IMG/VR virus record: IMGVR_UViG_3300006790_000005
Coordinates: 1-43,283 of that record
Strand: one strand, 5' to 3'
Length of the DNA stretch: 43,283 nucleotides
Source of the DNA: a virus
Below are positions 9,733-43,283 of this stretch, one piece after another; the first letter of the stretch is position 1; each line of letters opens with the position of its first letter. Below the pieces are notes generated by a model that saw only the letters and a list, made by a program, of their open reading frames with translations, was not told the DNA's origin and made no database searches. The position numbers and the translations under genes are program-made.

Positions 9733-9745
9733 CGAGGAGGTTATC

Positions 9746-10582: not shown

Positions 10583-10594
10583 GAGATATACCTT

Positions 10595-11026: not shown

Positions 11027-11483
11027 CAACGGCGAGACTACAATCCAGTTTGAGTTCGTCTATAAGGCGGAGATGGTGCACGAGACTGGTATTGTAACGA
11101 ACGTACATCAAAGTTTGTTTGCTGACAATCCAGTTAAAGCCTACCAAAAGATGGAGGACATGGCGGAACAATGGAAAGCCGTCATTAAATGCTGGGAAGT
11201 TAAGCGTCTTTGCAGCAAGACAGGTGAGTTGCATAATGTGTTTGCACGTGCTGTACCACGCCGTTACACTGAAGAAGCAGGCACGTGGTCAGGCGCGCCG
11301 AAGTCTTTAGGCGAGGCTCTGCGTGAGGCACAGGACAATGCAGCCCAGCGTACTGCTGACGAAGTAGATGAGTGGCTCGGCCACTGGTACAATCAGTCAG
11401 GGTTCATGGTCTACGATAAGCCTAGTAAGCCGGTTGCCCTAAAGGCTCTGAAGGAGGTAGACAATGCCAAGACTGACATATGA
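11007..11483 (+). CDS. Unknown protein of the amidoligase cluster
   Basis: 158 residues from GTG 11007, chosen for its GGAG seven bases upstream and 20-base overlap with the GGCT-like gene; the frame is open further upstream inside that gene. It has an N-terminal beta segment (TTIQFEFVYKAEMVHETGIV), then amphipathic helices (KAYQKMEDMAEQWKAVIKCW; LGEALREAQDNAAQRTADEV). No catalytic motif or family was recognised. It ends inside the start of the next gene (20-base overlap). Confidence 0.6.
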   Translation: MAAIVSSNGETTIQFEFVYKAEMVHETGIVTNVHQSLFADNPVKAYQKMEDMAEQWKAVIKCWEVKRLCSKTGELHNVFARAVPRRYTEEAGTWSGAPKSLGEALREAQDNAAQRTADEVDEWLGHWYNQSGFMVYDKPSKPVALKALKEVDNAKTDI

Positions 11484-13079: not shown

Positions 13080-14542
13080 TGTGTGGAATTGTAGGTGTTA
13101 TAAGCAACGAGCGTACACTACACCGTGTAGCTCGTGCTAAGTACATGACACAGGCGCTAACTGTCGATATGTTACGAGGCGAGGACAGTACGGGCATCTT
13201 CTATGTGCCCCACGAATATGCTGACAGTAGCGACAGGACGGCAGGCTGGCTCAAGTCTTTGGACGCAGGTCCGAAGTTCGTTGAGAGCGCGGACTACCAG
13301 AAGGTAGTGCGGGATATTGAAAAGTATAAGTACATGGTAGGCCATAACCGCTTTGCTACTATGGGTGCTGTTGACGTGGACAACGCGCATCCCTTCCAAG
13401 TTGGCCCGATTACGCTGGTGCATAACGGCACGCTTGATACTACGCGCACCCTACCTACTCCCATGTACAAGCTGCAGGACGTGACAGTAGACAGCCACGC
13501 CATCTGCCACAACTTGGCAGAGCACGGCGTAGCCGAGGTAATCGCGCAGTTGGATGGGGCGTTTGCTCTAGTGTGGCACGACGCACGGGACGATAGTCTC
13601 AACATCGTGCGTAACACCAAGCGGCCTCTGCACTTTGCTAAGGTCAAGAGCCAGCAGACTATAGTGTTCGGTAGTGAGGCTGGGATGGTCAACTGGTTAT
13701 GCGAACGCAATAACTTACAGACCGAGGACATTGTGTACCCCACAGCAGGTACATACATGAAGTTCATGCCTAACGACCTTATGAATCCAGAGATTACGGA
13801 GCTGGAGCTGATGGTCGAATCATACTACGAACGTGCGTGGGGAAACTACTCAGGCAGTAGTGACTACTACGTAACAAGTAAGCCTTATAGTCGGGGAGAA
13901 AGCCCTGACCCAAAGCCCCTGACGGAAGATGGCAGCCAGCGGGAGTTCCGCGTAATGCTAGGTGGCAGGCTGCGGCCCGTGCCTCTGCCAAGTCAGGCGA
14001 TGCTGCTGGAATTCGAGCTGAGTCCGGACGACGACGAGAGATTCACTCCGGTGAGCTGGTCGGAGACAAAGGACGGGAACGGGGTAGTCTCGGGTTTCTT
14101 CGTTCGCTCAGGCATGTCTGCGGCGGTCTATAATACACCCCGTGACCTGTACGCTGAGTATGAGAACGTCCCGTGGACAGTACGACCCATCGCCGTCAAG
14201 AGGCACGACACCAATGAGGCTGTAGCTATATGCCGAGTACGTAAGTACAAATGGGACGGCCAAGCAGTCGGAGTAGCTGACGCTATTACTGATGCGTTTG
14301 AGGATGATATTCCATTCGAGCCTGACATGGACGAGCAGATATCTGATATGGTTCTCGGGCCATATGGGACTCTTGTAACGGTAGAGCAGGCGGAGACTCT
14401 AGTATCCGGCGGCTGTACGATGTGCACTAAGCCCATCCACACGGACGACCTTAACGACGTCGAGTGGGTGAACAACGGTAGAGACCCAGTATGCGGGCAA
14501 TGTGTTGCTGACTGGGACTTAGAATATGGGAGTGGAAGATAA
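13079..14542 (+). CDS. Class II glutamine amidotransferase
   Basis: 487 residues starting MCGIVGVISN, with Cys2 as the N-terminal nucleophile of an Ntn-fold glutaminase. Further class II blocks are LRGEDSTGIF, YMVGHNRFATMGAV, HPFQVGPITLVHNGTL and LDGAFALVWHDA, as in GlmS/PurF-type glutaminase domains. No synthetase domain of known type follows; the C-terminal half is unfamiliar and ends in a zinc-ribbon pair (CTMC about residue 452, CGQC about residue 473). It would free ammonia from glutamine for the nearby ligases. Starts with TAATG overlap to the amidoligase and ends with TAATG into the ATP-grasp gene. Confidence 0.9.
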   Translation: MCGIVGVISNERTLHRVARAKYMTQALTVDMLRGEDSTGIFYVPHEYADSSDRTAGWLKSLDAGPKFVESADYQKVVRDIEKYKYMVGHNRFATMGAVDVDNAHPFQVGPITLVHNGTLDTTRTLPTPMYKLQDVTVDSHAICHNLAEHGVAEVIAQLDGAFALVWHDARDDSLNIVRNTKRPLHFAKVKSQQTIVFGSEAGMVNWLCERNNLQTEDIVYPTAGTYMKFMPNDLMNPEITELELMVESYYERAWGNYSGSSDYYVTSKPYSRGESPDPKPLTEDGSQREFRVMLGGRLRPVPLPSQAMLLEFELSPDDDERFTPVSWSETKDGNGVVSGFFVRSGMSAAVYNTPRDLYAEYENVPWTVRPIAVKRHDTNEAVAICRVRKYKWDGQAVGVADAITDAFEDDIPFEPDMDEQISDMVLGPYGTLVTVEQAETLVSGGCTMCTKPIHTDDLNDVEWVNNGRDPVCGQCVADWDLEYGSGR

Positions 14543-15318
14543 TGCGACCAAGACTATTGCCATACAAAAGGGGTAGCCGCAGCGCACGGGCGTTGAGCAC
14601 GGCTGCTCGTGTCAGACGACTTAACTTAGTACGTACTAAGCCATTTAACCTGTGGGGTAACGAAGTCGTCATCAACTGGGGAGCAGGAACTAAGCAGTTC
14701 GCCGAAGTGTTTGGCGGCAAAGAGCCTAACTGGATCATCAATCATCCCGAGGCAGTCGAACGTGCCTCCGATAAGCTGGCGTCGCTGAAAGCCTTTGCTG
14801 ATTCGGGCGTCAACCACCCTCTGTTCACAACTAGTAGGGACGAGGCGCAAGAGTGGGTGGACGCAGGCCGTACCTGCGTTGTACGCCACCTGACACGGGG
14901 CAACAGCGGGCGAGGTATAGAACTTATTGACAGCGGCAGAGTGTCTAGTGCGCCTCTTTACACACGGTATGTGCCTAAGTTTGACGAGTACCGAGTCCAC
15001 ATATGGATGGGAGAAGTCCTTGATACTCAACAGAAACGTCGGAGGATTACAGATAATGATACAGGATATGATAACAGAATTAGAAATTCGGCGTCGGGTT
15101 GGGTGTTCTGCCGAGAGCGGCTTAACATCCCAGATGCCGTACTCGCTGTGTCGAAAGCAGCCGTTCAGGCACTTGGACTTGACTTCGGAGCCGTCGATGT
15201 CGGCTTCACAAGAAACACTGAGAGAGCTACGGTATACGAGGTCAATACAGCGCCCGGACTTGAGGGAACAACCCTCGACAGATATGCCCGAGAACTCCGG
15301 AACATTTACCGCACATAG
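14542..15318 (+). CDS. ATP-grasp ligase
   Basis: 258 residues. After a basic N-terminus (residues 1-35, including palindrome-encoded LVRTK), the ATP-grasp blocks appear: KLASLKAFADSGVNHP, CVVRHLTRGNSGRGIELI (nucleotide-binding Lys/Arg and Gly loop), YTRYVPKFDEYRVHIWMGEV, and a C-terminal LDFGAVDVGFTR plus VYEVNTAPGLEGTTLDRY, with the Glu and Asn of ExNxxPG as metal ligands. Such enzymes activate a carboxylate as acylphosphate and join it to an amine. Last enzyme of the amidoligase cluster; substrate unknown. Confidence 0.9.
   Translation: MRPRLLPYKRGSRSARALSTAARVRRLNLVRTKPFNLWGNEVVINWGAGTKQFAEVFGGKEPNWIINHPEAVERASDKLASLKAFADSGVNHPLFTTSRDEAQEWVDAGRTCVVRHLTRGNSGRGIELIDSGRVSSAPLYTRYVPKFDEYRVHIWMGEVLDTQQKRRRITDNDTGYDNRIRNSASGWVFCRERLNIPDAVLAVSKAAVQALGLDFGAVDVGFTRNTERATVYEVNTAPGLEGTTLDRYARELRNIYRT
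14625..14640. repeat. Dispersed palindrome, copy 13 (coding)
   Basis: CTTAGTACGTACTAAG, perfect; read as (N)LVRTK near the N-terminus of the ATP-grasp protein. Confidence 0.9.
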
Positions 15319-27101: not shown

Positions 27102-27439
27102 TACTTAACTCCTTCATGTTCCATACTGTAGTGGTTTCCGTCATTGAATCTACCGCCCCAACTGTTCTCAGGGTGCAGGGATTCCCAGTACTCCCCTAAA
27201 GGTCTGTGGTCTTCCGTCTCGGTGAGGTACTCCCCATCCCAGAACAGGTTGAAGTCCACCGCGAGTCGCTGTGTGTGTAGAGAGTTGGCGATTCCCGTCC
27301 CGTTCGCAGCGTTGCGCGCTGCTTCCTCGGGCGTTCTATACGTCTGACCAAAGGTAAGCTCGTAGCCATTCTCGTACGCATACTGGATTAACCTCGACAC
27401 GTTGTAGGTGAATATGGACTGCTTGGTTCGCAGGCTCAT
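27101..27439 (-). CDS. Endolysin: M15-type L,D-/D,D-endopeptidase
   Basis: 112 residues, typical for T5-Lys-like single-domain M15 peptidases. TFGQTYRTPEEAARNAANGT, SLHTQRLAVDFNLF and RFNDGNHYSMEH give the zinc ligands His and Asp of HxxRxAxD and the late His, with a catalytic Glu/Asp nearby. It cuts peptidoglycan stem peptides at lysis. TAATG overlaps on both sides link it to the internal virion protein before it and the holin-like gene after it. Confidence 0.9.
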   Translation of the reverse strand: MSLRTKQSIFTYNVSRLIQYAYENGYELTFGQTYRTPEEAARNAANGTGIANSLHTQRLAVDFNLFWDGEYLTETEDHRPLGEYWESLHPENSWGGRFNDGNHYSMEHEGVK

Positions 27440-30400
27440 TACGGCGCTCGCATCCTGTCTATGACTTTCTCTTTCATGCGGTCGGTGCTAGGAATATTGC
27501 TATCTTGTCTCGGGTCTTCCGCGTAGGTAATACCGTTCATCTCAAGGATACCCTCGATGCCCAGCCTAGCTGCGAGTGAGCGGAACACAAATGAGCGCGG
27601 CGGAATCTTCTCCAGCTTCACGAACTGCTCCAGCATCTTAGGGTCGGACATAATCTCAATGGCTTTACGTGCGCCCACGCTACGGGAGTAGCGGTTGTAC
27701 GCAGTAAGGAAACGTTGCTTACGGGACAGCGGGCCGAAGATTGCACGGAACGCCTGCAGCGGGATACTCTGTACCACGTCACCGGAGGGTCTTACCGTAC
27801 GGGAGGCCTCGTCAATGTCCAGAACACGCGCTACCTTTTTCAGATTCTCGACGTACTTTGCGCCCATAACAGCCCCTATCTTAGCCTCGTTCTTACCGAT
27901 GAGAGTACGGATAGCGTTGCCACCACTCTTGAGTGCAGGCCCAGACGTAAGCTGATTAGTCATCCACTGCGCTGTCTCTGCGCGGAACTGCGCGGCCAGT
28001 GCAGGGTCTATCTCGTTGATTCGGTTATAGAAGTTACGGGTTTGCTGGGCTGTGAGGTTATCTCCTTGAAAGATACCCTTGACAAAGCTGTCAGGTGCGA
28101 GCCTGCCCTTAGCATCCTTAATAAACTGGTCGCCAAAAGTTTCGATGTACAGGTTCTGCACAGCCTCGGCCTTCTTGGCTGAGCGCTGTACCGCAGCTTG
28201 CATGGTCTCCGCGTTGCTTATACGTGCCCAGTCGTCAGGCCCAAAGATGAGGTCAGCTTGGTCGCTAAACTGGTTCCTGAACTCAGTCATGCCCGTAGTG
28301 GAGAACTTACCACCGGGGTATACCTTGTTGTTGAACAGGGTCTGCATCTCTTTAGCGAACGCAGCTTTCACGGCAGGGTCGTTCTTGGTGATATCCAAGA
28401 CCTGCTGCAGGGACTCACGACTGCCGAGCATCTTCGTAATCGCCTCACGCGGGGCGTTATCAAACTGGTACTCCTGCAGCCGCATGTTGCCGTTAGCGTC
28501 CTCTACCATTCTCGGTCGAGTAGCTGTCATATCTCGGATGGTGTCTGCCTGAGCCACCTGCTTCTGCCAGATGGTGGCGTCCCGAGCGATGGAGTAGGCG
28601 TCTACAATCTTAGCCTTTTCTGCTGCGGTAAGGACTACCTCTTTACCATCGGGGCCGATACGCACGAAGTCCATCTGCGCAATCTGCGCATCAATGGCAT
28701 CGTTAATCTTCTGTATCTGCTCAGTGGCGTAGCCGTCGAAGTTGCTAGGACGGGCGTTCTTCATAGCCCTAAGCTCTTTCTTGAGCTGAGATTGCAGCCT
28801 TGTGAGCTGGTCGAAGGTAACGTTCGGACCGTTCATAGCCTGTAGGTCTTCCACCAACTTGGCTGATTTAGTGCCAAGCTTGTTAGACAGGGCTTCTCTG
28901 CCCTCCTTAGACACGTCTTGTAGAGCAGCGCGGACGGGACTCGGGGCCATACCCTGCCCGTCAGGCAGGTAGCGGAAGGTGTTACGTACTTGCACAGCGG
29001 ATTTGCCGCTAGGCAGCACACCTGTCAGTTGACGGAGGTTCTGCCACGTAAGCTGGACAGCCTCGTTCGCACGGGCTACCCCGTCCATCGTGGCGGTCTC
29101 AATCAGTCCGAAGTTACTGGGCTGTATCTCCCTCTCCATAATGGAGATGAACTCTTCCTGTGCATCAGCAGCCAACTGAGCGTCGTCTAGCGCACGATTG
29201 AGGCTGGTGCCGTCTAGGTCTGTCTCGTTGATTATCTCACGAGCACGGAGCATACGCTCGTCTGATGGGACGTCTGGGTTGGGGGCGTAGACCCCCTGCT
29301 CTTTGGCAAGCTGGGCCAGCACAGCGGGGTCGTCCACGTCTGTGATAGCTTGGTTGACCACGGACTCGTAGCCGCTCCGAATCTGGAGCTGCTGGTTAAG
29401 GTCGCCTGCGAGCTGCACTTCCTTGTCTGCGGGAGTGCCGCGCCTCATCTTATTTTGTAGCCATATGCCTATCTGTGTGCCGCTAAAGCTGTCGGACTTG
29501 AGGCCCGCTGCGGACATGACCGCTTCGGGTGTGAACTCAAGGTCACGCCCAGCGACTATGCCTAGCTCCTCAATCTCCCTGAGGATGCGCTCATGCTCTT
29601 CACGAATCTTCGGGATATCTTTCGGGTCAATGACACCGGCTTTATTACGTACTCGGCGTATAGCCTCCATCACACCGCCGAGTCCTAGCTCACCGCCGCC
29701 CGCTAGCAGGCCTTGTATGAGCCACTCGTTGTTCTTCGAGCCTTCGTCTATTTGCTCGTCAGTCATACCGTAGAACTCTTTGAGTATCTTCTTACGGACG
29801 GGGACTGACAGGCTGTTAATGAGGCCGCTGTATGCAGATGATGTAGCCAATGCGCGACCTCCGCTAATAGCGGGGTTGCGTGTGGCGAACGCACCAGCAG
29901 CAATCTCGGCTGCCATTACGGGGGCGTTAGGGGCGAACTCCACCATATCCCCGAGGTCGAAGCCTACGGGGTCTACGAGAGTAGCGCGGATGCCGCCTAC
30001 GTTGTTAGGGTCTTCTCCGTATCTCTCTACGTCGTCGCCCGTAATGGGGCGCATGACGGTGAGGCGGCCTGTGTTAGGCTCGTAGTATACGGGGTTGATG
30101 TTCTCTGGAACCTCTTTGCCGTTGGCACGGAAGTTCTCACGCGCTAGCTCCTGCGCAAGCTGGAACTTGAAGAAGCCGTCTTGGAACTCAGCAAGGCCAA
30201 GTGCCCAACGGTCGCCCAAGTCCGCGCCTGAGCGGACGTCAATGCCGTCTTCCCATGCTTGTCGGTTTAATCGGGAGGGGTCGTTAGATGGAGTAGGGAT
30301 AGTAGGTGCTGGCCCCATAGGACCGGCAGGTCCGATAGGCTGACGCTCTGGTACAGGCGGCGGCTCGCCCAGAGGCGTAGTAACCAGCCCGCCGAAGAAC

Positions 30401-30918
30401 TCCTCAATCTGCGCGTCGTTCTCTGCCTTGACAGCAGCGTTACGGCTAGCAGTTGCAATGTCCTCTTCCAGCTCTGCAATGATGGACTCTGCTTCTTCCT
30501 GAGAGCTAGCCTCGAAAGTTACAGAACGACCATTGCTCAGCGTGGTAGTAGCTGACCTCTTCTGCGGTTGCTGTTCCATATTCCGGTAGTAATCCTTAAA
30601 TTCTTCGGGCTTGTAGCCCTTACTAAAAGCTATTGCAGACTCCTTATTAGGCATCCTAATAGCTTCACCCCTTTCTTGATTGTACTTACGCGCCTCTTGC
30701 CCGTCCTCAAAGATACGGTACTTACCATCTTCGAGTACGACATTAGGAAACACGTACCATTCGCCGGTCTCTGGGTCTACCTCCGCTCCCATCTGGTGGG
30801 TCATATACTCACCTCGCGAGTTCTGCGGGGGAGTAGGGTACTTGGACGGGTTAAAGATTCTGTCTACAAACTGCTTATCTTTATTATTATCCAGTACAAC
30901 TTGAGGACTTAGTTCCAT
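27439..30918 (-). CDS. Large internal virion (ejection) protein
   Basis: 1159 residues, the largest gene. The N-terminus has FNPSKYPTPPQNSRGEYMTH and YVFPNVVLEDGKYRIFEDGQ, as seen in internal proteins of short-tailed phages; long helical stretches with Gln and Glu follow, and there is no lytic-transglycosylase Glu motif that I can identify. The size and position after two other internal-protein genes fit the role of T7 gp16: release from the capsid to build the trans-envelope DNA channel. No Shine-Dalgarno; its start overlaps the gene before by 10 bases. Confidence 0.75.
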   Translation of the reverse strand: MELSPQVVLDNNKDKQFVDRIFNPSKYPTPPQNSRGEYMTHQMGAEVDPETGEWYVFPNVVLEDGKYRIFEDGQEARKYNQERGEAIRMPNKESAIAFSKGYKPEEFKDYYRNMEQQPQKRSATTTLSNGRSVTFEASSQEEAESIIAELEEDIATASRNAAVKAENDAQIEEFFGGLVTTPLGEPPPVPERQPIGPAGPMGPAPTIPTPSNDPSRLNRQAWEDGIDVRSGADLGDRWALGLAEFQDGFFKFQLAQELARENFRANGKEVPENINPVYYEPNTGRLTVMRPITGDDVERYGEDPNNVGGIRATLVDPVGFDLGDMVEFAPNAPVMAAEIAAGAFATRNPAISGGRALATSSAYSGLINSLSVPVRKKILKEFYGMTDEQIDEGSKNNEWLIQGLLAGGGELGLGGVMEAIRRVRNKAGVIDPKDIPKIREEHERILREIEELGIVAGRDLEFTPEAVMSAAGLKSDSFSGTQIGIWLQNKMRRGTPADKEVQLAGDLNQQLQIRSGYESVVNQAITDVDDPAVLAQLAKEQGVYAPNPDVPSDERMLRAREIINETDLDGTSLNRALDDAQLAADAQEEFISIMEREIQPSNFGLIETATMDGVARANEAVQLTWQNLRQLTGVLPSGKSAVQVRNTFRYLPDGQGMAPSPVRAALQDVSKEGREALSNKLGTKSAKLVEDLQAMNGPNVTFDQLTRLQSQLKKELRAMKNARPSNFDGYATEQIQKINDAIDAQIAQMDFVRIGPDGKEVVLTAAEKAKIVDAYSIARDATIWQKQVAQADTIRDMTATRPRMVEDANGNMRLQEYQFDNAPREAITKMLGSRESLQQVLDITKNDPAVKAAFAKEMQTLFNNKVYPGGKFSTTGMTEFRNQFSDQADLIFGPDDWARISNAETMQAAVQRSAKKAEAVQNLYIETFGDQFIKDAKGRLAPDSFVKGIFQGDNLTAQQTRNFYNRINEIDPALAAQFRAETAQWMTNQLTSGPALKSGGNAIRTLIGKNEAKIGAVMGAKYVENLKKVARVLDIDEASRTVRPSGDVVQSIPLQAFRAIFGPLSRKQRFLTAYNRYSRSVGARKAIEIMSDPKMLEQFVKLEKIPPRSFVFRSLAARLGIEGILEMNGITYAEDPRQDSNIPSTDRMKEKVIDRMRAP

Positions 30919-32639
30919 ATAATCTTAGTACCAGATTTGGTGGTGGTCTCAGTGCCCGGAGGCGGTGCCCCGTTGTACTGCGGGGGCGAGGGCTGGTTAA
31001 GCACAGCCGCGTCAGCGGGCTGGTCTTCGGCGAGCTGCTGGGTTACCGCTTGGTCAGGGTTAAGGAAGGCTTCTAGTCTAAGACGTTCCGCGTCTATCTC
31101 AGCAACCAGTTCGTCAGAGCGAGCCATGTTAGCCTTTCCGTAAATAACGCCCAGCATAGATTTACCCGAGATGCCGAGGTCGCGGAACGCGTTACGAGAG
31201 TCCTCTGTGCCCATGCTCAGTATAGCGTCAACTCGACTGGCAGTGCCTTTAAAGTCCTGCTTCAAGGCGGTGTGACCGCGCAGCATGCGCTTCCGGATAA
31301 TTTCCATAACGGCTCTGGGGTTACCCGAGGCTGCGCCAATCTCACGAAGAGCATTCCGGAAGTCGGTGTCAGAGAGCTGTCTTGCCCCCGGTTCGTTAGC
31401 ACGCGCCACCGCGTAGGCCAATTGCACAATGTTTGCCTGATATTTGGCCGCGTCGATTCCTCGGCGCTCCAGTTCGGGAGGGAGTTTGATGTTCTCTAAA
31501 GCATCCGCCTCGTACTTCTCAGCAAACTCCATTAGAGTTTCGCGGCTAGTACGTTTACCATTAAGGTCTTTATCTGCCCCGTCAATGACCACATTGAAGT
31601 CGTCCACGACTGAACCAATGAACTGCGTCATATTATCAGCAAAGGTTACAAGCTTGCCTTGTCCGTCAAGGATAACGCTGGCGTCTGTGCCGCGAGCGTA
31701 CTGCTCGTTCATAAGTTTGAGGACGTCTAGGGTAATCTCGCCCTGTTTATTGTACGCAGCGACTAGGGGAGCCATCTCCTTCTTATCCATCTTAAGGAGC
31801 TGCATAATTTTGCTCTGTATGTCAAGGGACGGATCGTCTTTAAGAGTATCAGCCAAGCTAATCGGCTTGCCGTTCTTGTCTTTAGGCAGATTGTCGACCA
31901 TAGTATCGTAATCGTCGATGTGCAGGTAGTCGCCCTGATACACTTCGTCCTGTCCTATGATACGGAGGTTACCGTTCTCGTCCACGCGGGCCTGTACGCT
32001 GTTACTCTGCAGAGCGTCCAGCCCTGTCGGGTACGCGCCTGTAGGTCCGGGCAGGAAGTACGTTCCGTACTCCTCGGACTTCTTACGGCGTTCCTCATCC
32101 GCATCGTGGCGAATCTCTTGAAGCGTCCTTTTCCGGTCTGCGTCGCGGCCCTTAGTCTGCTCCCTCTTGTCCGCAATCTCCGCCTCAGTGCCCTCTATAT
32201 CGAGGCCCGCCTGCTCTATCTCTAGCTTCGCAAGCTTAGCTGCTCTTTTTTCTTGGGCGAGTTCAAGAGCAATCTGACCCCCCATAGCGTAGTCGCCCTG
32301 CTGATAAGCAGCGCGAGCTAGCTCTTCTCTGTACTTCCAGTTCTTTTCCTCAATAGGCAGGTTAGCATATGCTGAGTCCGCCTCGAACTCCGCCATGTTC
32401 TGGTCTGCTGTAGTCTTAATGGCAACTTTCCGCTGCTCGTCTTCGGATAACTCGGGGTTGCCAAATACGGCTTTACCCAGTAGTGCGCCAAGCGCAGCCG
32501 CTCCCTTGTTGGTAGTGGCGTTCTGCGTGGCGTTAGCGACCATCGCTCGACCTTTGCGTGCACGAAGCTCTTCTTCGCTATATGGCGTTAGCCCATAGCT
32601 TTCAAGGAACCCTGCGTCTACTCTAGTTGGTTGCGTCAT
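30909..32639 (-). CDS. Internal virion protein, coiled-coil
   Basis: 576 residues, mostly helical. Residues about 140-190 form a charged coiled coil (QEKRAAKLAKLEIEQAGLDI, REQTKGRDADRKRTLQEIRH), followed by a beta-rich part (YFLPGPTGAYPTGLDALQSN) and a Pro-rich C-terminus. The position between two other internal proteins fits the middle ejection protein (T7 gp15-like). Assignment by layout only. Confidence 0.65.
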   Translation of the reverse strand: MTQPTRVDAGFLESYGLTPYSEEELRARKGRAMVANATQNATTNKGAAALGALLGKAVFGNPELSEDEQRKVAIKTTADQNMAEFEADSAYANLPIEEKNWKYREELARAAYQQGDYAMGGQIALELAQEKRAAKLAKLEIEQAGLDIEGTEAEIADKREQTKGRDADRKRTLQEIRHDADEERRKKSEEYGTYFLPGPTGAYPTGLDALQSNSVQARVDENGNLRIIGQDEVYQGDYLHIDDYDTMVDNLPKDKNGKPISLADTLKDDPSLDIQSKIMQLLKMDKKEMAPLVAAYNKQGEITLDVLKLMNEQYARGTDASVILDGQGKLVTFADNMTQFIGSVVDDFNVVIDGADKDLNGKRTSRETLMEFAEKYEADALENIKLPPELERRGIDAAKYQANIVQLAYAVARANEPGARQLSDTDFRNALREIGAASGNPRAVMEIIRKRMLRGHTALKQDFKGTASRVDAILSMGTEDSRNAFRDLGISGKSMLGVIYGKANMARSDELVAEIDAERLRLEAFLNPDQAVTQQLAEDQPADAAVLNQPSPPQYNGAPPPGTETTTKSGTKIIWN

Positions 32640-32645
32640 GTAAAG

Positions 32646-33911
32646 TTACCCTTTGAAGAATCCTTCAAGTTTATCGAACGCGCCATTGTCGCTTGCAAAG
32701 CCAGCAAAGCTGTTACTAAGGTCGCCAATAGCCCCCCAGCCTGCAGTATTGCCACTGTTGGCTAGAAACTCAGCTTGGTTAGCACCTGCCATCGCCTGCC
32801 CACTAGAGAAAGCATTAGACGCCTGTAGTGTAGCACGGCGCTCGCCCTCAATAGCCGCAAGAAGTCCCTGCAGCCCGCCCATAGTATTGATATCGGCGTT
32901 CTGCACATTCTGCCCAAAGTTAAAGAGCCGCTCGTTCAGAGCGATTCGGCGGTTAGCGTTGTTAATCCGCGCCTCGTCAGCATTATACATAGACCTCATA
33001 AGGCCGCCGGTTTGGTCATAGATAGAACTGCCGAACCTATCTACGTTTTGTGCTAAGTTAGAATAGCGGCTTGTATTGGCTCCGAAGCCAGAGATTAAGC
33101 CCTGTAGGCTTTGTCCTGTCAGAGCTTGTCCAATCCTCATGTCGTTGGCGCGCTGTTGGTCAGCAAAGTTACCGGCAGCAATCTGACGATCTACGTCTGC
33201 CTGTGCCTGTCCTCGGGCAAAGCCCTCGGCTAATATACCAGAGCTAGTACTGTTATTTAGCAGACCAAATTTATATAGGTTATTCTGGAAATCAGCAGCG
33301 GCGCGCTGTTCCTGCGGCGCGGCCTGCTGTCTAAGAAGGTCAAGACGCTGGTCTGCAAGTTGACTATAGTCTTGGCTAAGTAGCTGCCCGCCACGCTGGA
33401 ATAGCATATTGGACTGCAGTTCGCCGGGGGACATGCCTCTTAGAGCCTGTCTGGATGCGCGAGCTGCGTCGCCTTGCATGATCCGGTTAAGCACATTATT
33501 CGATAGCACAGCGTTCTCAAGCCCTGCTAAGCCCCGCTCTCCCCTGCCATAGCCGAGTTCTGCGGATTGTCCAATAAGGCCGCCCATGCCAGCTATAGAG
33601 GCCTCTCGATTGCGATTAAGCGCTAACGCGGCTGGGCCGCTCATACGGCTCATACTAAGCCGGTCTCCTAGCTGCTGCTCAATCCCAGATAGAAAGCTAT
33701 TTCCGCCCTGCAAATTAGCATTCCAGACGCCTGTCTCGGGGTCTTGGTAGACATTTACGTTGCCGGTAGAAAGGCCTCCTATTTTAAAAGGCTTATACGC
33801 GGCTGCATCGGCTGCCCGTTTGGCCGCCTTCTCTTGGGCCTTGCCTTGTTTGTAGCTGCTGTAAGCGCTGACGCCCACTGCACCTGCTGCTAATGCTGTT
33901 GCTGCTGCCAT
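32646..33911 (-). CDS. Internal virion protein, Ala/Gly/Gln-rich
   Basis: 421 residues. The start MAAATALAAGAVGVSAYSSY is a small-residue helix followed by KQGKAQEKAAKRAADAAAYK; most of the remainder is Gln/Asn/Gly-rich helix (QSAELGYGRGERGLAGLENA). The hydrophobic N-terminal segment and composition match P22 gp7/T7 gp14-like ejection proteins that insert in the outer membrane. Starts by TAATG at the GNAT gene stop. Confidence 0.7.
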   Translation of the reverse strand: MAAATALAAGAVGVSAYSSYKQGKAQEKAAKRAADAAAYKPFKIGGLSTGNVNVYQDPETGVWNANLQGGNSFLSGIEQQLGDRLSMSRMSGPAALALNRNREASIAGMGGLIGQSAELGYGRGERGLAGLENAVLSNNVLNRIMQGDAARASRQALRGMSPGELQSNMLFQRGGQLLSQDYSQLADQRLDLLRQQAAPQEQRAAADFQNNLYKFGLLNNSTSSGILAEGFARGQAQADVDRQIAAGNFADQQRANDMRIGQALTGQSLQGLISGFGANTSRYSNLAQNVDRFGSSIYDQTGGLMRSMYNADEARINNANRRIALNERLFNFGQNVQNADINTMGGLQGLLAAIEGERRATLQASNAFSSGQAMAGANQAEFLANSGNTAGWGAIGDLSNSFAGFASDNGAFDKLEGFFKG

Positions 33912-34372
33912 TACAGCTCCTTAGTGAATACTGTCTCGTTTAATGTGTAGTCTAGTTTCTTATATACGGCATCTGGACGTTCGGGATTAATATCATCCAT
34001 GTGCACCATATTCAAGTACTTCAAGCCTAGCTGTCTGCCGACGTTTTCAGCCTGACGTATAAGTCTTATGCCTGCCCCGCCCTTGCGGTAATCAGGATGC
34101 ACATAGTATGCAATCTCTGCAGCAGACTTATATTCTGCATTGAACAAGAACGGGGTCACGATTGCCATTAAAAAGCCAACTATCTTGCCGTCGGCTACGG
34201 CTATCTGAGCAATGCCGTCATTGTCAATAATAAATGAGAACAGATGGGCTACATCCTCCGGGCTGTACTCAATGCCATCTGCGTAGTACTTGGTCTGTAA
34301 CCAAAACCCTTCGCCTAGCTCTACCATCTCCGGTACGTCGTCTAGGTGTGCGCGCCTTACCTTAGTTCCCAT
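33911..34372 (-). CDS. GNAT-family N-acetyltransferase
   Basis: 153 residues with AGGAG upstream. GNAT blocks: KVRRAHLDDVPEMVELGEGF, IAVADGKIVGFLMAIV, AEIAYYVHPDYRKGGAGIRL (the RxxGxG/A acetyl-CoA loop) and KYLNMVHMDDINPERPDAVY. GNAT genes occur beside internal-protein genes of several phages. Target unknown; a virion or host protein is possible. Third in a row of modifying enzymes after SET and 2OG-oxygenase genes. Confidence 0.88.
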   Translation of the reverse strand: MGTKVRRAHLDDVPEMVELGEGFWLQTKYYADGIEYSPEDVAHLFSFIIDNDGIAQIAVADGKIVGFLMAIVTPFLFNAEYKSAAEIAYYVHPDYRKGGAGIRLIRQAENVGRQLGLKYLNMVHMDDINPERPDAVYKKLDYTLNETVFTKEL

Positions 34373-34931
34373 ATTCTTTCTCCTTTAAATCAAAGAACGC
34401 TGTGAGCACGATACGTCCGTCTGTAGCGTCGTTGCCGTAGCCACCTATAGGCTCGGCTCGGTGCATAATCTCCGAAGAGAATATACATGCCCTGTTAGGC
34501 TTGGCCTTTGTCATGGCCCACACTTCCCACTTCGACGGCATCTTGGTGTCTCTCTCCCAGATAGCGAACTCCTCGGGAGTCTCTGGGTCTGCCATCATGC
34601 CTGTCTCTTTGTGCCGTACAAAGGACGTTCCGCCCCTGTCTACCAGATACAACATGAGAGACCACTCCCCCATACTGCTATCGGTATGTGCGTAATGCGG
34701 AGGCTCCGGAGTGTTGGCTGTCGTCATACGCAAGAACATGTGGTTAATGCGGACGGGGCCGAACCTGTCGTTCAGCTTCTCCTCTACCTCCAACGCTACC
34801 TGCTCGGGAACGTGCGTGCAGATATCAGGGTATACTTTTCCATCTGCTACTGCGTTGGCGTATGCTCCTGTGTCTGCATACTCTCGTAACGCTTCGTACG
34901 TACTAAGGAAATCGTCGAATATCAACCTCAT
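34362..34931 (-). CDS. 2-oxoglutarate/Fe(II)-dependent oxygenase-like protein
   Basis: 189 residues from ATG 34931 (TAATG overlap with the SET gene). PPHYAHTDSSMGEWSLMLYL gives the HxD pair, CIFSSEIMHRAEPIGGYGND the distal His, and DGRIVLTAFFDL the Arg that binds 2-oxoglutarate, on a double-stranded beta helix. Related enzymes hydroxylate proteins or small molecules. It lies between SET and GNAT genes in the virion block. Palindrome variant copy 20 falls in its N-terminus (FLSTYEALREY). Confidence 0.82.
   Translation of the reverse strand: MRLIFDDFLSTYEALREYADTGAYANAVADGKVYPDICTHVPEQVALEVEEKLNDRFGPVRINHMFLRMTTANTPEPPHYAHTDSSMGEWSLMLYLVDRGGTSFVRHKETGMMADPETPEEFAIWERDTKMPSKWEVWAMTKAKPNRACIFSSEIMHRAEPIGGYGNDATDGRIVLTAFFDLKEKEYGN
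34892..34907. repeat. Dispersed palindrome, copy 20 (variant, coding, late arm)
   Basis: CTTCGTACGTACTAAG on the plus strand. Read on the minus strand in the oxygenase gene it is CTT AGT ACG TAC GAA; the consensus would give TAA, so the single change removes a stop. Confidence 0.7.
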
Positions 34932-35335
34932 TAGTACTTGCCCCAATGGTCCGCGTAGTTGACAAGTATCTCCTCGCCCGACTGGATGGGGCGAGTAGCC
35001 ACTGCCAGCACAAGGTCGTACTCGTCTACCAGCTTGGCGTTGTTGTCAGCAGAGTGGTTCGTGTACCGGCCTATCAAGCCTCGGTACTTGTCCTTACCCT
35101 TGCTCATAGCGAGGCCAATAAGGCAGCTATTTGGAATGTCTATCTTGGCAAATACTCCTAGACCGTGCACATCTGACGCCCTTACCTCGTAAGTCTCGGA
35201 CTCAGTGTGAACTACCGGCCCTGCGATAGCCTCCATAAATTTAGAGTCTGCTAGAGAGTCGTTAAAGCGCTCGGCCTCTTTTGCAGATATTCCTATCTCG
35301 TCTAAGAACCTACTCCAATCTTCCCTTTCTTTCAT
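34931..35335 (-). CDS. SET-domain protein
   Basis: 134 residues from ATG 35335, with AGGAGGGAG upstream. SET signatures: YEVRASDVHGLGVFAKIDIP, then GRYTNHSADNNAKLVDEYDL (the NHS motif) and AVATRPIQSGEEILVNYADH (the GEExxxxY motif). SET proteins usually methylate lysine. There is no room for extra domains. It is the first of three modifying enzymes in a row, between holin and internal virion protein genes, so a virion or host target is plausible. Confidence 0.88.
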   Translation of the reverse strand: MKEREDWSRFLDEIGISAKEAERFNDSLADSKFMEAIAGPVVHTESETYEVRASDVHGLGVFAKIDIPNSCLIGLAMSKGKDKYRGLIGRYTNHSADNNAKLVDEYDLVLAVATRPIQSGEEILVNYADHWGKY

Positions 35336-35528
35336 TTTTACGCTCCCTCCTTGCATGAAGCGCTTTCTCCACGTGCCACCACGCTGCCGTCGCACCTGCT
35401 ACAATAGCCACTACAGTGGCAAATAGCTGCAGGACTTCATTCATGTCGTGTACCCATGTAATTCCGGCTGTAGTTATGCTGGTAGCTGCCGCAACATCTG
35501 CGGGCAGGCTTTCAAGACCTCGCTGCAT
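35310..35528 (-). CDS. T7-type class II holin
   Basis: 72 residues from ATG 35528 (AAAGGA upstream). Layout as T7 gp17.5: a short N-terminus, the segment VLQLFATVVAIVAGATAAWW, then a strongly basic tail (HVEKALHARRERKNERKGRL). A weaker hydrophobic stretch (VAAATSITTAGITWV) precedes. It follows the tail fibre gene, as the holin does in T7. It would make inner-membrane lesions that let the endopeptidase out. The endopeptidase lies about 8 kb downstream. Confidence 0.75.
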   Translation of the reverse strand: MQRGLESLPADVAAATSITTAGITWVHDMNEVLQLFATVVAIVAGATAAWWHVEKALHARRERKNERKGRLE

Positions 35529-35550
35529 CCTATAGTTCCTTTCTAGAGTA

Positions 35551-36927
35551 CTAAGCATCGGCCCAGTAACTGAAGTTCAGTCCGTAGAAACGATAGGTGC
35601 CGGTGGTTTTCCAGTCGTTATCGTTATAGAATGTAATCCGAAGGTCGGGGCCGGAGCCTCCGTAGTTAAGGTATGCTCCGCTGTCATTAATAAGCTCGGA
35701 CTCGTCGGCGTCTGTGCCCAGTACCTTTACGAACCGATACAGATTTACAGGAATGTTTTCATCGTCAGTCGGACGAGGAATCTCTGCCGTATCAAGCTCA
35801 ATAATAAAAGTGCCTTGATCTGAGCTAGTTGGACTGAACTCAAAGTAGCGGTTATTGGTAGTGCTCCCGTTATGAGCTACCTGCACCAACTTACCTGCGG
35901 TGCCGTAGTCCCACACGCAGTACCGCAGCTCGGCTGCTGCTGGGCTAGTCCACGTCATGTCAGAGTCTAGTGTTAGAGTCAGGTCTCCCGTAGTTCTACT
36001 AATAGTAGAAGATGACACTAGATCATCAATAAGGGCTTTGGCTGTAATTCCGAAAGTGGCATCGTAGAACGGTAAGTAATCTGCCGAACTATCAGGGGTC
36101 GCTATGGGCAGGTCATCGACGTTGAGTATGAGCTTGCCAAATGCAAAGCCAAGTCCGCCGTTACTAGAGGCAAGATCAACGGAAAGAGTAGGGTCAGACG
36201 ATAAGTCTGCGCCGCCAGTCAGGCCGTCACCTGTAAGAACTTGACGAGTGTCGACCACTACACCGTTGCCTAGAATAGTAGGAGCGGTGTTAAAGTTCAC
36301 TACACCCGTTGAATTAGTCAAAGTAAGTGCTGTGGTATAGGTCTCCGCGCCTGCTGAGCCTGTGGCCGTCATAAGGCGTAGACTTGCTAAGCTAGCACCG
36401 ACCTCCCATCGAAATCGTTCAGCGTCACTAGAGTTCCCGTCTGTGATGGCGTTTACTACTTGATTACCCGTACGGCTCTGGTTAATCCTAACTGCGTTAA
36501 GGCGCGCACTTAAAGTGGTTTGCCCTGTTACACTCAGAGTGCCTCCGATAGAACCTGTCCCAGTTACGTCAAGGTTACCACCAACGTCGGCATTGCCAGT
36601 GAAGTCAGCATTGCCTGATACTCCAATATCATTACCTATAGTAGCGTCGGCCGTAGTAGTTATACTAGTTGCCGACAGGTCTAGCGTTACACTTGGCCCT
36701 TCGAGCGCCTCTTTAAGGTTCTCGGGAGTAATAAGTGTAATGGCGCTGGTCAGCGCCTGTGCCGTTGCCGTGTCGGCAATGTCGCCCGAGTCATACTTAG
36801 TAGCAGTGACTGTGGCTAGCTCTGCAAACTCAGCATCCAGTTCTGTGCCAAGAATTTTCTTCTGCGCATCGCCCGGAGTCAAAGAGTCTTTTGGTCCGTA
36901 GAATGTATTCTGTGTGTAATCTGACAT
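35551..36927 (-). CDS. Tail fibre protein
   Basis: 458 residues. The N-terminus (TFYGPKDSLTPGDAQKKILG, then TELDAEFAELA) is the typical attachment segment of short-tailed phage fibres. A repetitive part follows with SGNADFTGNADVGGNLDVTG, TGSIGGTLSVTGQTTLS, suggesting a beta-helical or triple-beta shaft, and the rest is beta-rich. The C-terminus (TYRFYGLNFSYWADA) would be the tip. Starts by TAATG at the tail hub stop. It probably binds the host receptor together with the lectin-like protein at 2483-4132. Confidence 0.85.
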   Translation of the reverse strand: MSDYTQNTFYGPKDSLTPGDAQKKILGTELDAEFAELATVTATKYDSGDIADTATAQALTSAITLITPENLKEALEGPSVTLDLSATSITTTADATIGNDIGVSGNADFTGNADVGGNLDVTGTGSIGGTLSVTGQTTLSARLNAVRINQSRTGNQVVNAITDGNSSDAERFRWEVGASLASLRLMTATGSAGAETYTTALTLTNSTGVVNFNTAPTILGNGVVVDTRQVLTGDGLTGGADLSSDPTLSVDLASSNGGLGFAFGKLILNVDDLPIATPDSSADYLPFYDATFGITAKALIDDLVSSSTISRTTGDLTLTLDSDMTWTSPAAAELRYCVWDYGTAGKLVQVAHNGSTTNNRYFEFSPTSSDQGTFIIELDTAEIPRPTDDENIPVNLYRFVKVLGTDADESELINDSGAYLNYGGSGPDLRITFYNDNDWKTTGTYRFYGLNFSYWADA

Positions 36928-38534
36928 TACTTATATCGTCCTAGTTTAGCGAATATATCGAGCTGTTGAATGGACACTGGAGCACCGTTAATGGCCGTGG
37001 AGAGGGCCAGTTTAATAAACTCGCCGGTGCCTCTACCTGCCACTTTGCCTTGCCGCAGTTGAGCGCCTCCGCCGTACTCGGCCTCACCCCATTCGCCCTC
37101 GCCATACTCAGATACGCCGATAGCACCAATGAAGTTAATAGTCTGCGAAAGAAAGCTAGTTTCAAAGTCAAATGCCCACTTGAAGTTAATGTTTGCCGTA
37201 GCTTCGAGGAACAGTAGCCCCTCAATGCGCTTAGGTATAATTAGATAACCTGAGCCGCCAGTAATATCAATCCAGCCGGACTCGTACTCGAAAGCGTAGG
37301 ACACGCCCGCGCCGTCGTTGTAGCCTCCAAACTTACCCAGCTCTCCTTCTTGCTCAAACAGAGAGAAGTAAAACTCTTTATCGTCTTGCTTAATAAATCC
37401 GGATGTAGGTACTAGGGAATTCCACGTGCCCATACAACGTACTGCGCCGTCTTCTAGCCTAGCCCGGGTATCAAATATAACCGCCTGTCCGAACTCCTGC
37501 GACAGCCCTCCTAACTCTTTAGGCAGGGAAAGGAGGAAAAACCTGTCCTTTGGAGAATAGAAGGACCGCGCACGAGTCAAATCGGTGTCGTCTTGTTCCA
37601 CTAGGTCGCGGATAAAGTCCTGCACCTGCGGGGCTATGTTGTCCAGCGGATTAGATACCTCTTGGATAGCACGGCCTAGACTATGTAAGCCCTGCGACGA
37701 GATGAACCAGAGATCTCCTTCTACGTTCTGTACTAGCTCGCGTCCGAGACACCCTATGCCTGACAGCGTGTCTACCACCTGCATCTTGGTGACGTCTACG
37801 CCAAGCTCAGTGCCCTCGGGGTCTTGGATGAGGATAATATTTCTCTCTCCGAAGACAACTAATCTGTTGTTAGATACTGCAAGTGCCTTGATAGTATCAG
37901 TGTCAGGCCATACGTTTGTTAAATCTATCGTAGCTGCCGTAATAGACGTACCCGTAGTCGTCCAGTCTACGGCATCTAGCAGGCCTGAAACTTTAATTTG
38001 CGTATCGTCTGAGTCTGTAACCCACAGTCGGCCCCAAGCTGCTACGGCGACACGCCCGTCGGGGGCGTTGGCGTCTGCTACGTCTGAGAAAGTAGCGTCG
38101 GCTGAGTTATACTTGAGTATAGTGCCTCCACTGCCTTGAATGCCAAATATATCATCATTGAAGTTGATGAGCTGCATGTTACGTACGGTAATAGTACCGC
38201 CGGTAATATCAGACCACGTATCGCCATCATCTGTACTTTCCCAGAGAGTGGCGGTGCCGTCATCTACTGCTGCTATAAGGCTAGTAGTTCCGTCGTGCTG
38301 CGTGTACTCCTGTACCTGCAGTATCTCGTGGGGAATAGCGGAGCTAGTCTGGCTACTAAATCCTTTCCGGGCTGCGACGCGGTTGTTGTCGTCGATGACT
38401 GCATTCTGCAGGCTTGTCGCCCACTCGGGTCCGAGCAGAGCAGTTGACTGCTGCTTGTTCAATCCCTTGAATCCCGGCAGCGTTAGAGGAATTACCTGTA
38501 GCTGCGCACCTCCGTGGTAGCGTGGAGTCGGCAA
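36927..38534 (-). CDS. Tail hub / nozzle protein (beta-propeller type)
   Basis: 535 residues. GFKGLNKQQSTALLGPEWAT, SLQNAVIDDNNRVAARKGFS and later repeats (LIAAVDDGTATLWESTDDGD; RVAVAAWGRLWVTDSDDTQI) are typical of propeller-like tail tubular B/hub proteins of short-tailed phages. The start is TTG 38534, an unusual codon, chosen because a strong site GGAGGAG lies seven bases upstream and no ATG fits; the previous stop is adjacent. With the adaptor before it, it forms the tail tube end. Confidence 0.8.
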   Translation of the reverse strand: MPTPRYHGGAQLQVIPLTLPGFKGLNKQQSTALLGPEWATSLQNAVIDDNNRVAARKGFSSQTSSAIPHEILQVQEYTQHDGTTSLIAAVDDGTATLWESTDDGDTWSDITGGTITVRNMQLINFNDDIFGIQGSGGTILKYNSADATFSDVADANAPDGRVAVAAWGRLWVTDSDDTQIKVSGLLDAVDWTTTGTSITAATIDLTNVWPDTDTIKALAVSNNRLVVFGERNIILIQDPEGTELGVDVTKMQVVDTLSGIGCLGRELVQNVEGDLWFISSQGLHSLGRAIQEVSNPLDNIAPQVQDFIRDLVEQDDTDLTRARSFYSPKDRFFLLSLPKELGGLSQEFGQAVIFDTRARLEDGAVRCMGTWNSLVPTSGFIKQDDKEFYFSLFEQEGELGKFGGYNDGAGVSYAFEYESGWIDITGGSGYLIIPKRIEGLLFLEATANINFKWAFDFETSFLSQTINFIGAIGVSEYGEGEWGEAEYGGGAQLRQGKVAGRGTGEFIKLALSTAINGAPVSIQQLDIFAKLGRYK

Positions 38535-39361: not shown

Positions 39362-40378
39362 TTAGGCGGGGACAACAATCGGCAAGCCAGCTTCGGCTCG
39401 CAGAACGCCATCACCATACAGAATGTCTGAGGTCATCAGGTCACCCAGATATTCCAGTTTGTACTGCGTCTGAGCACGGGGACGGAGCTGTTCGATGTGA
39501 ACAAGAGCCTCGTCCTGCAGCATCAGTGCAACACGGTAGTTGGTAGATGCGTCAGCCGCCTGTACCGTAGCACAGTTAGTACTGACATACACATCTACAC
39601 CGTACAGGTTACCGATGATACCGTTCCGGATGCTATTCGCACCGCCTGCTTCACCAACGAACTGGTGCTCAGTAAAGCGGTCCTGAGAGAGAAGGTTGTT
39701 CTTCTCAACCGGGGGAATAACAAGGTAGCGACCGGTCGACGGTACGTCGTTATCATCCAAAGTCTGGATGAAACCACGGATACCAGCGTCGGACAGAGCC
39801 GTACCGTTACCAGTATTGGTGTTAGCAGTAGCATCCCACTGAGTCGCTTCGCTCGTACCGATTACGCCACCGTTAAGGGCGGAAGCGGCGAGGTCTTCGG
39901 GGTCAGTGTTAGTACCAACACCTGCGGCGTTAAGGAACTGCGCTACTTCGTGCAGGTCCGTATCTACCTGCTTAGCGAGAGCGTAGCCCGCGTCATCGGT
40001 ATAGAACCGACGCAGACTGTCATCAGCCTGAATCGACACGATATCTTCGATGAGTCGCGAGTATTCCCAGTGCTCGTCAATGGTGTAGGAGCGCTTGCCT
40101 TCCTGATTCTGAATCAGGGTGACCTGCGTCTCCGTCGATTTAGCGCTGGCGGAGCCGCGTACCGGACGGGGAACGTGGATAGTGTCGCCCTTCTTACCGT
40201 TATGGTTCATAACAGTAACAAGCTGCGGCATCACAAGGTTAGCCTTGTACGATGCTACAATCTCGTCTTCCCACAGCTCGCGAACAAACGCGCTGTTGGA
40301 GTACGTACGAGACGCGGCACTAACTGGACCCTGGCCGGTAGTTACGTCTTGATAGACGTGATTTGTACCAAGTGGCAT
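39362..40378 (-). CDS. Major capsid protein (HK97 fold)
   Basis: 338 residues with GAGAGG upstream. Typical blocks are NSAFVRELWEDEIVASYKAN, KKGDTIHVPRPVRGSASAKS (spine/E-loop region), SYTIDEHWEYSRLIEDIVSI, DTDLHEVAQFLNAAG, RYLVIPPVEKNNLLSQDRFT and NGIIGNLYGVDVYVSTN, the usual order of HK97-fold capsid proteins of short-tailed phages. It follows the scaffold gene and precedes a hairpin terminator, consistent with the highest late expression. Confidence 0.93.
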   Translation of the reverse strand: MPLGTNHVYQDVTTGQGPVSAASRTYSNSAFVRELWEDEIVASYKANLVMPQLVTVMNHNGKKGDTIHVPRPVRGSASAKSTETQVTLIQNQEGKRSYTIDEHWEYSRLIEDIVSIQADDSLRRFYTDDAGYALAKQVDTDLHEVAQFLNAAGVGTNTDPEDLAASALNGGVIGTSEATQWDATANTNTGNGTALSDAGIRGFIQTLDDNDVPSTGRYLVIPPVEKNNLLSQDRFTEHQFVGEAGGANSIRNGIIGNLYGVDVYVSTNCATVQAADASTNYRVALMLQDEALVHIEQLRPRAQTQYKLEYLGDLMTSDILYGDGVLRAEAGLPIVVPA

Positions 40379-41490: not shown

Positions 41491-41740
41491 TGTCTTCATC
41501 CGCCGCATCAGCAAGGAGGTTGGCCCTCGTTACGTCTGCTATCTCTTCGAGTCGGATAAGACGGTTATACGCCTGCGCCTGACCCTTAGCAAAGACTACC
41601 TGTTCCCAAGTATCCAGTTCTAAGGCGTCGGCCTGTAAGTTATAAATCTCAGATTTTAATTCTTCGAGGATACGCTGCCACCCTTTGGTAGAGAATACCT
41701 CGTCAAGCTCTTCAAAGTACTTAGCTGTTGCTTCGTCCAT
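41477..41740 (-). CDS. Small helical protein between portal and FmdB-like genes
   Basis: 87 residues from ATG 41740, with AGGAG eight bases upstream; it overlaps the portal end by 20 bases. Almost all helical (TAKYFEELDEVFSTKGWQRI, VVFAKGQAQAYNRLIRLEEI). Proteins of this pattern follow the portal gene in many short-tailed phages, as possible portal or packaging accessories. Function not known. Confidence 0.65.
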   Translation of the reverse strand: MDEATAKYFEELDEVFSTKGWQRILEELKSEIYNLQADALELDTWEQVVFAKGQAQAYNRLIRLEEIADVTRANLLADAADEDNANI

Positions 41741-43283
41741 TCTGTCCACTCCTCACTTTCAGTAGTTCGATTCGGTTACGGTCCTCGGCCACCTCAGTCT
41801 GCCTGCGAGTGACGCGAGCCTTCTCCGCACCGATAGCTGTGTTGGCTGCCGCAATCTCGACGCGCTCGTCCTCAAGGTCCGTATCCACAATCTCGTGCTG
41901 GGTCTTGGCCTTGATGAGGGCGATATTAGCCTCCGTCTCGTCATTCTCCAGCTTAAGCTTGCGGTGCTGTTCTTGAGCCATCGCAAACTGCAGTGCTTCC
42001 ATCTGCTGTTGCTTCTGCTGCTCTTCCTCAGACGGGGGCTGAGACATTGCTGCAACTGCCTGCTGCAGCTCTTGCTTCTCGCTAGACGTCGTGTTCTGGA
42101 AGATAGCCTGTATCAGTACGCTGTGTGCGGGGGACTCCGGTGGCACAAACCCGAGCATCTGTACAAGCTGCTGGGTCTCCACTTCCTTCGCCATGATACC
42201 GAGGGTAGCCTTCGGGACAAACTTGTAGTCCCTCGGGTAACGCTGCGGGTCGAACTGCACGTAGCGCCACAGCGCCTTCTGGATGAAGGGCTGAAGTAAA
42301 TGTTCCTCGACGTTGCGCATTGTCTTCTTGCTGCGCTTCAGGAAGCCAGCCTGCATCTGAGACATGCCACCGCTGGTTTCGTTGCGTCGTGACGTGGCGA
42401 GCGGGGTAGCGCTGTCCATAGCGCCGGTGCCCATCTGCACCATCCGTTCTAAGTCGCCCGACTGCTGGAACGTCAAAGCCAAGCCTTGCGGCGAGAATCC
42501 GACTGGCTCCAGAATTTCACTGGGCCGGCCTCGCGTCAGAATAGTCTTGCCGGGACGTACGCGCAAATCCGGATTGCGTGGCAATCGCGTAATGTCCGCG
42601 CCCATCATAGGGGCCGTGACTAACGCAAGTCCATCGTTCCGTGCGCGGAGTTCCGCATCAAGAGCCTTTTGTGGATTGTAGCCTTTCTCAGACACACCAC
42701 GACCCCAGAACTCTCCGGGTACGCTATCATGCTGATACGCCACAATCGGGCGGTCTTGCATAAGGAAGGGGTTTTTAATCGCCTTAAGTAGCGTGGTCTC
42801 GTTGGCAATCGTGACGATAGCCTCAACCATTCCCTCATCTCCCGCATCCTTAATGAACCGTGCGGGAACCTTACCGTAGTACTCTGTGATGTATACGCCG
42901 TTGTCTTGCGACTGGACGGTCCGTCGCCGTCCTGTGCCGGTCGTATCGCTCTGACGTTGGCCTGTCCATGCCTCCACGTTACCGGGGAGGTATAGGCCTT
43001 GCTTCTGTTTAGCTTTGATGTTGTGTATGGGTTTCACGAACTCGTGTGCGCAAAACTCCTCTTCACCAAGATATCGAGCCGATGCGTCGATGACGAACTC
43101 ATCAGGACGTACCGCCTCTAGGGTACACAGAACCTTATTGCGTTCTACAACTTGGCCCTGCACCACACTTCGTACATTCTTCTGTACGACGTTAATCTTA
43201 CCTATGCCCGTGCCGTAGATGGCTCCGAGCAGGAGAATCTGACTGATGGCATTCTGGACTTTAGCGTCCTCGAAGTCCTCTAG
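41721..43283 (-). CDS. Portal protein, C-terminal part (continues at position 480)
   Basis: The frame is open to the right edge of the window and, after removal of the 123-base overlap, is continuous with the start at 480; this part gives 479 of 639 residues. It contains the wing and clip domains (KTILTRGRPSEILEPVGFSP, ATSRRNETSGGMSQMQAGFL, RNVEEHLLQPFIQKALWRYV). The last 115 residues are a Gln/Glu-rich coiled coil (SEEEQQKQQQMEALQFAMAQ), as in the barrel of P22- or T7-like portals. A GTG at 43166 inside the gene is not a start. Confidence 0.88.
   Translation of the reverse strand, partial: LEDFEDAKVQNAISQILLLGAIYGTGIGKINVVQKNVRSVVQGQVVERNKVLCTLEAVRPDEFVIDASARYLGEEEFCAHEFVKPIHNIKAKQKQGLYLPGNVEAWTGQRQSDTTGTGRRRTVQSQDNGVYITEYYGKVPARFIKDAGDEGMVEAIVTIANETTLLKAIKNPFLMQDRPIVAYQHDSVPGEFWGRGVSEKGYNPQKALDAELRARNDGLALVTAPMMGADITRLPRNPDLRVRPGKTILTRGRPSEILEPVGFSPQGLALTFQQSGDLERMVQMGTGAMDSATPLATSRRNETSGGMSQMQAGFLKRSKKTMRNVEEHLLQPFIQKALWRYVQFDPQRYPRDYKFVPKATLGIMAKEVETQQLVQMLGFVPPESPAHSVLIQAIFQNTTSSEKQELQQAVAAMSQPPSEEEQQKQQQMEALQFAMAQEQHRKLKLENDETEANIALIKAKTQHEIVDTDLEDERVEIAAANTAIGAEKARVTRRQTEVAEDRNRIELLKVRSGQNGRSNS
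43161..43283. repeat. Terminal overlap, right copy
   Basis: Identical to bases 1-123. Counting it once gives a circular genome of 43,160 bp. Confidence 0.95.

Follow-up and report, generated by a model that had tools for sequence, protein, structure and literature searches.

SET methyltransferases are mostly associated with eukaryotic chromatin. A viral SET histone methyltransferase, vSET, has been described from the algal virus PBCV-1, and infection with this virus raises H3K27 methylation in the host (PMC3089700). On phage SET proteins, our literature search of open-licence papers found no paper; the words ‘set domain’ in a crassvirus paper mean immunoglobulin C2-set domains. Phage acetyltransferases of the phrog_1249 family are known from SIO1 (gp26.2), CRP-810 and K1E (gp27), and T7 encodes a short protein, gp13 (PF11090, internal virion protein A), directly before its internal virion proteins. 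Here, we analyse a virus record of 43,283 bases (IMGVR_UViG_3300006790_000005, positions 1 to 43,283; the window hereafter), whose late operon encodes a SET-domain protein, a 2OG-Fe(II) oxygenase (2OG) and a GNAT acetyltransferase one after the other. Its GNAT belongs to phrog_1249 and, like the SIO1 and CRP-810 genes but unlike K1E gp27 (upstream of the portal gene), lies between tail appendage or fibre and ejection-type genes, which is also the slot of T7 gp13. Unlike the window GNAT, none of these three phrog_1249 genes has a SET or 2OG gene alongside.

Late operon and enzyme genes of the window

The portal gene spans both record ends (window 1-480 and 41721-43283, minus strand), so the window is probably circular or circularly permuted. 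The late genes run leftward on the minus strand in the order portal, scaffold, capsid, tail, fibre, an 82-aa ORF, SET, 2OG, GNAT and proteins of 421, 576 and 1159 aa, and the phage is a short-tailed one. Its major capsid protein (MCP; 39362..40378) matches phrog_267 (2.2e-45), its tail tube/stabilisation-type protein (36927..38534) phrog_5107 (1.6e-22), and the tail-fibre-like protein (35551..36927) has relatives in 19 of 80 MCP-related loci, mostly after the tail gene. Downstream of the enzymes, the 421-aa protein (32646..33911) is presumed to be the first internal virion (ejection) protein, going by its position, its coupling and an N-terminal resemblance to the relatives' first such protein; the 576-aa protein (30909..32639), with relatives at the same place in two loci (L122, 1.6e-16; L130, 7.5e-6), and that of 1159 aa (27439..30918), judged by position, are presumed internal virion proteins, too. 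Neither the 421- nor the 576-aa protein matches a named or informative family, and their label reflects position and resemblance to relatives. The initial annotation had set the enzymes between a holin and these internal virion proteins. The late position stands; the holin label is unsupported, the 82-aa ORF (35310..35558) having one apparent transmembrane (hydrophobic) segment with a basic tail and a weak match to the Rz-like spanin family phrog_1152 (0.0025).

No DNA-level relatives of the window were found in the phage collection. A recent foreign origin of the three enzyme genes was considered on grounds of composition, but their GC content (0.47-0.52, lowest for GNAT) against 0.525 for the window is not decisive. 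In the early half of the window, a plus-strand cluster (9671-15318) carries genes for a COOH-NH2 ligase, an amidoligase, a glutamine amidotransferase (GlmS-like) and a RimK-like/S6 glutaminyl transferase; these are of a peptide- or cell-envelope-ligation type and protein-modifying as well.

The three enzyme genes lie in a row at 33911-35335 with the TAATG and 11-base overlaps that had been noted at the outset. SET starts with the ATG at 35335 behind a AGGAGGGAG ribosome site, a longer GTG ORF reaching 35395 being less likely, and is overlapped by the 82-aa ORF over 26 bases. SET and 2OG share a common TAATG (A at 34931), 2OG and GNAT overlap by 11 bases and another common TAATG at 33911 joins GNAT to the gene of the 421-aa protein, so that all junctions from the fibre gene through the 421-aa protein overlap, two of them by TAATG. 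Through these overlaps, SET, 2OG and GNAT show translational coupling among themselves and with the 421-aa protein gene.

Family models and active-site motifs, all intact, bear out the three fold calls of the initial annotation, as do predicted folds for SET and 2OG. The SET protein (134 aa, 34931..35335) matches PF00856 (1.3e-9, 38.8 bits against a curated cut-off of 22.4) and consists of a helical N-terminal region (residues 2-38), an AGPVV linker (38-42) and the SET core (about 49-131) with GxG (58-60), R85, NHS (93-95), E122 and Y127. Its AlphaFold2 model (pLDDT 87) adopts a SET fold, with vSET (3kma, E 2.6e-6) as best PDB match. Of 80 distinct phage SETs, with an overall identity of about 30%, 79-80 retain GxG, the second N, E and Y; R, G and NH are not independent, as the pattern used to search for these 80 contained them. 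The 2OG protein (189 aa, 34362..34931) matches DUF6445 (PF20043; 2.7e-12, 47.5 bits, cut-off 24), and its iron triad and distal arginine (H82-x-D84, H157, R173) are invariant in an alignment of ten proteins (A3). Its model (pLDDT 70) has a double-stranded beta-helix fold and 2OG-Fe(II) oxygenases as top PDB matches (Foldseek, from 6.6e-6). GNAT (153 aa, 33911..34372) matches Acetyltransf_1 (PF00583; 3.5e-12, 47 bits, cut-off 20.7) and phrog_1249 (7.7e-29) and carries an acetyl-CoA loop, RKGGAG, whose arginine (R96) is invariant in alignment A4. This motif conservation argues for SET, 2OG and GNAT being catalytically competent enzymes rather than relics.

The 2OG protein also matches phrog_1644, which is named ‘minor coat protein’; this name and that of phrog_274 (‘DNA endonuclease V’) look like mislabels of 2OG oxygenases. 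Given the shared slot, T7 gp13 was considered as a degenerate GNAT, but the profile comparison was negative, with no PF11090 match for the window GNAT and an hhalign probability of about 1%. Two other loci have proteins of 100-108 aa in the slot before their ejection genes (L095:9368-9670, L145:14285-14581), which faintly resemble the C-terminal half of T7 gp13 (marginal match, P 0.0014, probability 17%).

Phage SET genes and their neighbours

Single-sequence scans of IMG/VR with SET, 2OG or GNAT were empty, and the relatives came from alignment-based scans. The gene-neighbourhood survey that the initial annotation had called for found phage SETs beside ejection, GroEL/GroES, baseplate, portal and terminase genes. 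In the podophages P26218 (gp30), PH1 (gp49), ctfPj964 and zth2-2, SET forms the C-terminal half of a protein of about 290 aa, and the cupin-like N-terminal half has its matches among ‘short tail fibre/adhesin’ families; whole cupin-SET proteins make up phrog_34170 in PHROGs (also MW202744). The window SET aligns to linker and SET of this family only (152-277 of 296), and no cupin domain was matched in it or elsewhere in the window. Since 8 cupin-SET records stand against 49 cupin-only ones among 57 matched records of cultured or deposited phages, SET is an optional addition to the cupin part; L041 has a split form, a cupin gene followed by a SET gene. Of 30 podophage loci, at least 26 have a DNA-ejection protein gene (24 phrog_598, 2 phrog_21132) directly after cupin-SET, usually with a junction that overlaps by 4 or 16 bases, and in zth2-2 cupin-SET is followed by a small TM/lysine-rich protein, a GNAT and then more genes. 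In the ctfPj964 record (MW202557), the cupin-SET gene (L002:4338-5240) is without annotation, and a reverse-strand ORF named ‘contryphan-vn-tryptophan’ lies beside and partly over it.

The window SET has its closest relatives among stand-alone proteins (mostly 122-146 aa, 35-41% identity), and many stand-alone SETs share the AGPVV linker. The one contig tested among them has a terminase like those of Flavobacterium/Cellulophaga podophages, and many contigs have its gene layout; from this layout a Crassvirales identity had been guessed, but this was rejected on account of the terminase matches. In the tree, the window SET groups with flavobacterial-type stand-alone SETs (94/85 support), a placement in which we have moderate confidence because of its long branch. 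Other stand-alone SETs sit directly beside phage GroEL (Cpn60) and GroES (Cpn10) genes by Pfam (L295:4992-7380, L318:4986-7281), such adjacency applying to 3 of 76 non-redundant SETs; those of cyanomyoviruses adjoin baseplate wedge genes, and further phage SETs lie beside baseplate, portal and terminase genes.

Pairing with 2OG recurs. A 2OG gene lies directly upstream of SET at 9 loci of a first scan and 32 of 69 new loci of a second; conversely, SET adjoins 2OG in 19 of 80 loci fetched through 2OG alone, and 15 of the 76 non-redundant SETs, the window's included, adjoin 2OG. Some loci have 2OG only (L208, L268, L271), others SET only (L020, L026, L294), and a related genome (MW202828) has neither in the slot where others have the pair. 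These loci show 2OG and SET to be optional additions to one slot.

Around the slot that precedes the ejection genes, one locus that is not a capsid relative of the window (L229) has the order tail, fibre, 108-aa protein, 2OG, GNAT and ejection-type proteins, i.e. that of the window without SET, and GNAT alone lies between tail/fibre and ejection-type genes in L163, SIO1 and CRP-810. Among the MCP relatives with a visible slot, its content varies (GNAT, 89-155-aa proteins or nothing) and neither SET nor 2OG was found there. Hence, the initial verdict that the combination is unusual applies to the triple, which among the loci compared occurs in the window only, and not to the pairs SET+2OG, 2OG+GNAT and SET+GNAT, each of which recurs in unrelated phages.

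Possible targets of the three enzymes

To our minds, the simplest account of pairs that recur in late modules, mostly beside ejection, chaperonin, portal-terminase or baseplate genes, is modification of the phage's own particle. We therefore favour, albeit tentatively and at a little under even likelihood, that these optional late enzymes modify virion or ejected proteins during assembly. The three genes would form an optional late cassette translated together with virion genes, and their products would act within the infected cell, as particles assemble, on proteins of the same operon: chiefly those that are ejected (internal virion proteins), perhaps also those of the tail or capsid. SET would methylate lysines, 2OG hydroxylate (or demethylate) a side chain and GNAT acetylate lysines or N-termini, marks that could tune solubility and packing of ejected proteins and their passage through tail and membrane. 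The initial annotation had likewise proposed virion or ejected proteins as targets. As a class, this fits the comparative placement, namely the ejection genes next to cupin-SET and the 2OG-GNAT order in an unrelated podovirus, whereas no specific target or residue emerges from our data, nor any support for the suggested effect on recognition by the host. Against own-particle modification, the close MCP relatives with a visible slot do without SET and 2OG, so a virion of that kind can dispense with the marks.

One possible target is the 421-aa first internal protein. Six of its nine lysines fall within residues 16-60 (window 33732-33866, minus strand), after a hydrophobic N-terminus (SYKQGKAQEKAAKRAADAAAYKPFK), while the proteins of capsid relatives have 0-3 lysines in the matching region; this cluster was noticed after the fact. 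N-terminal lysine enrichment as a substrate signature was dropped, since ejection proteins beside podophage cupin-SETs show no consistent cluster. A further reading, although a rather doubtful one, is that the SET-2OG-GNAT set places methyl, hydroxyl and acetyl groups on lysine-rich ejection-protein segments and so controls packing and ejection as a dedicated particle-modification system of tailed phages.

A place in a late operon sets when and where the enzymes are made but not what they act on, and they may, packaged or not, act on the host. The enzymes, or SET at least, might be packaged, leave the particle along with the internal proteins and modify proteins of the host as infection begins, much like vSET acts on host histones. 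This would agree with vSET being the nearest solved structure and with the rise in host H3K27 methylation upon PBCV-1 infection (PMC3089700), and a podophage SET joined to what is annotated as a short tail fibre/adhesin domain could be a virion part. The window SET, however, has no cupin part, and the GroEL/GroES or terminase genes next to the SETs of other phages accord with assembly better than with ejection, so we consider packaging unlikely.

Alternatively, the enzymes may have late targets in the host (ribosomal proteins, chaperonin, RNA polymerase) or modify an assembly chaperonin, with the operon providing no more than timing. Cellular GNAT and SET enzymes modify ribosomal proteins, and the stand-alone SETs beside phage GroEL/GroES would be in line with a chaperonin target. 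Yet the window genes examined include no recognised chaperonin gene, and it would need a separate explanation why SET recurs next to ejection genes. Late action on such targets thus appears improbable, too.

Still less probable is that three unrelated accessory genes share one permissive slot, with no common pathway and each with its own targets, possibly small molecules in the case of GNAT. Such a scenario draws on the variable slot of the MCP relatives and on the triple being confined to the window, but sits poorly with pairs that recur in unrelated phages and with the related genome that lacks both 2OG and SET where others carry the pair. Finally, the idea that the SET and cupin proteins serve the virion as structural components and have abandoned the enzymatic use of their fold, for which the short tail fibre/adhesin annotation of the cupin part and the 49 of 57 records without SET might speak, is very hard to reconcile with GxG, NH (itself within the search pattern), E and Y in nearly all of the distinct SETs and with an invariant 2OG triad.

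Comparison with known systems

Own-particle modification is what the wider comparison suggests: unrelated phages have the same enzymes, two at a time, at corresponding positions, and may thus chemically modify particle proteins themselves. SETs whose catalytic motifs are conserved occur in several phage lineages, repeatedly next to genes for ejection, chaperonin, packaging or baseplate proteins and in combination with an oxygenase and an acetyltransferase. Whether phage enzymes methylate, hydroxylate or acetylate virion or ejected proteins, and with what effect on assembly or infection, is now directly testable, and cultured cupin-SET phages exist (Rhodoferax phage P26218, Pseudoalteromonas phage PH1).

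The flavobacterial-type podophages (L012-L018, L022, L023, L274-L280 and others) offer a 2OG-SET pair in which SET groups with that of the window and 2OG is of the same family; it differs in having 2OG before SET, in lying between a GroES-like protein and terminase/portal genes and in lacking a GNAT. With the podophage cupin-SETs, the window SET has in common a homologous core, an N-terminal linker (REDF..ML..G) and a place upstream of ejection genes, but not the fused cupin-like domain. Like vSET (PBCV-1, PDB 3kma), it is a minimal SET domain of about 100-130 residues with the same fold and catalytic motifs; unlike vSET, it comes from a bacterial virus, is encoded in a virion operon and has an N-terminal helical region with AGPVV. 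Each fold is thus known by itself, and vSET is already a viral SET methyltransferase; phage-encoded enzymes that modify proteins are of a known kind, too, and are tied here to virion genes.
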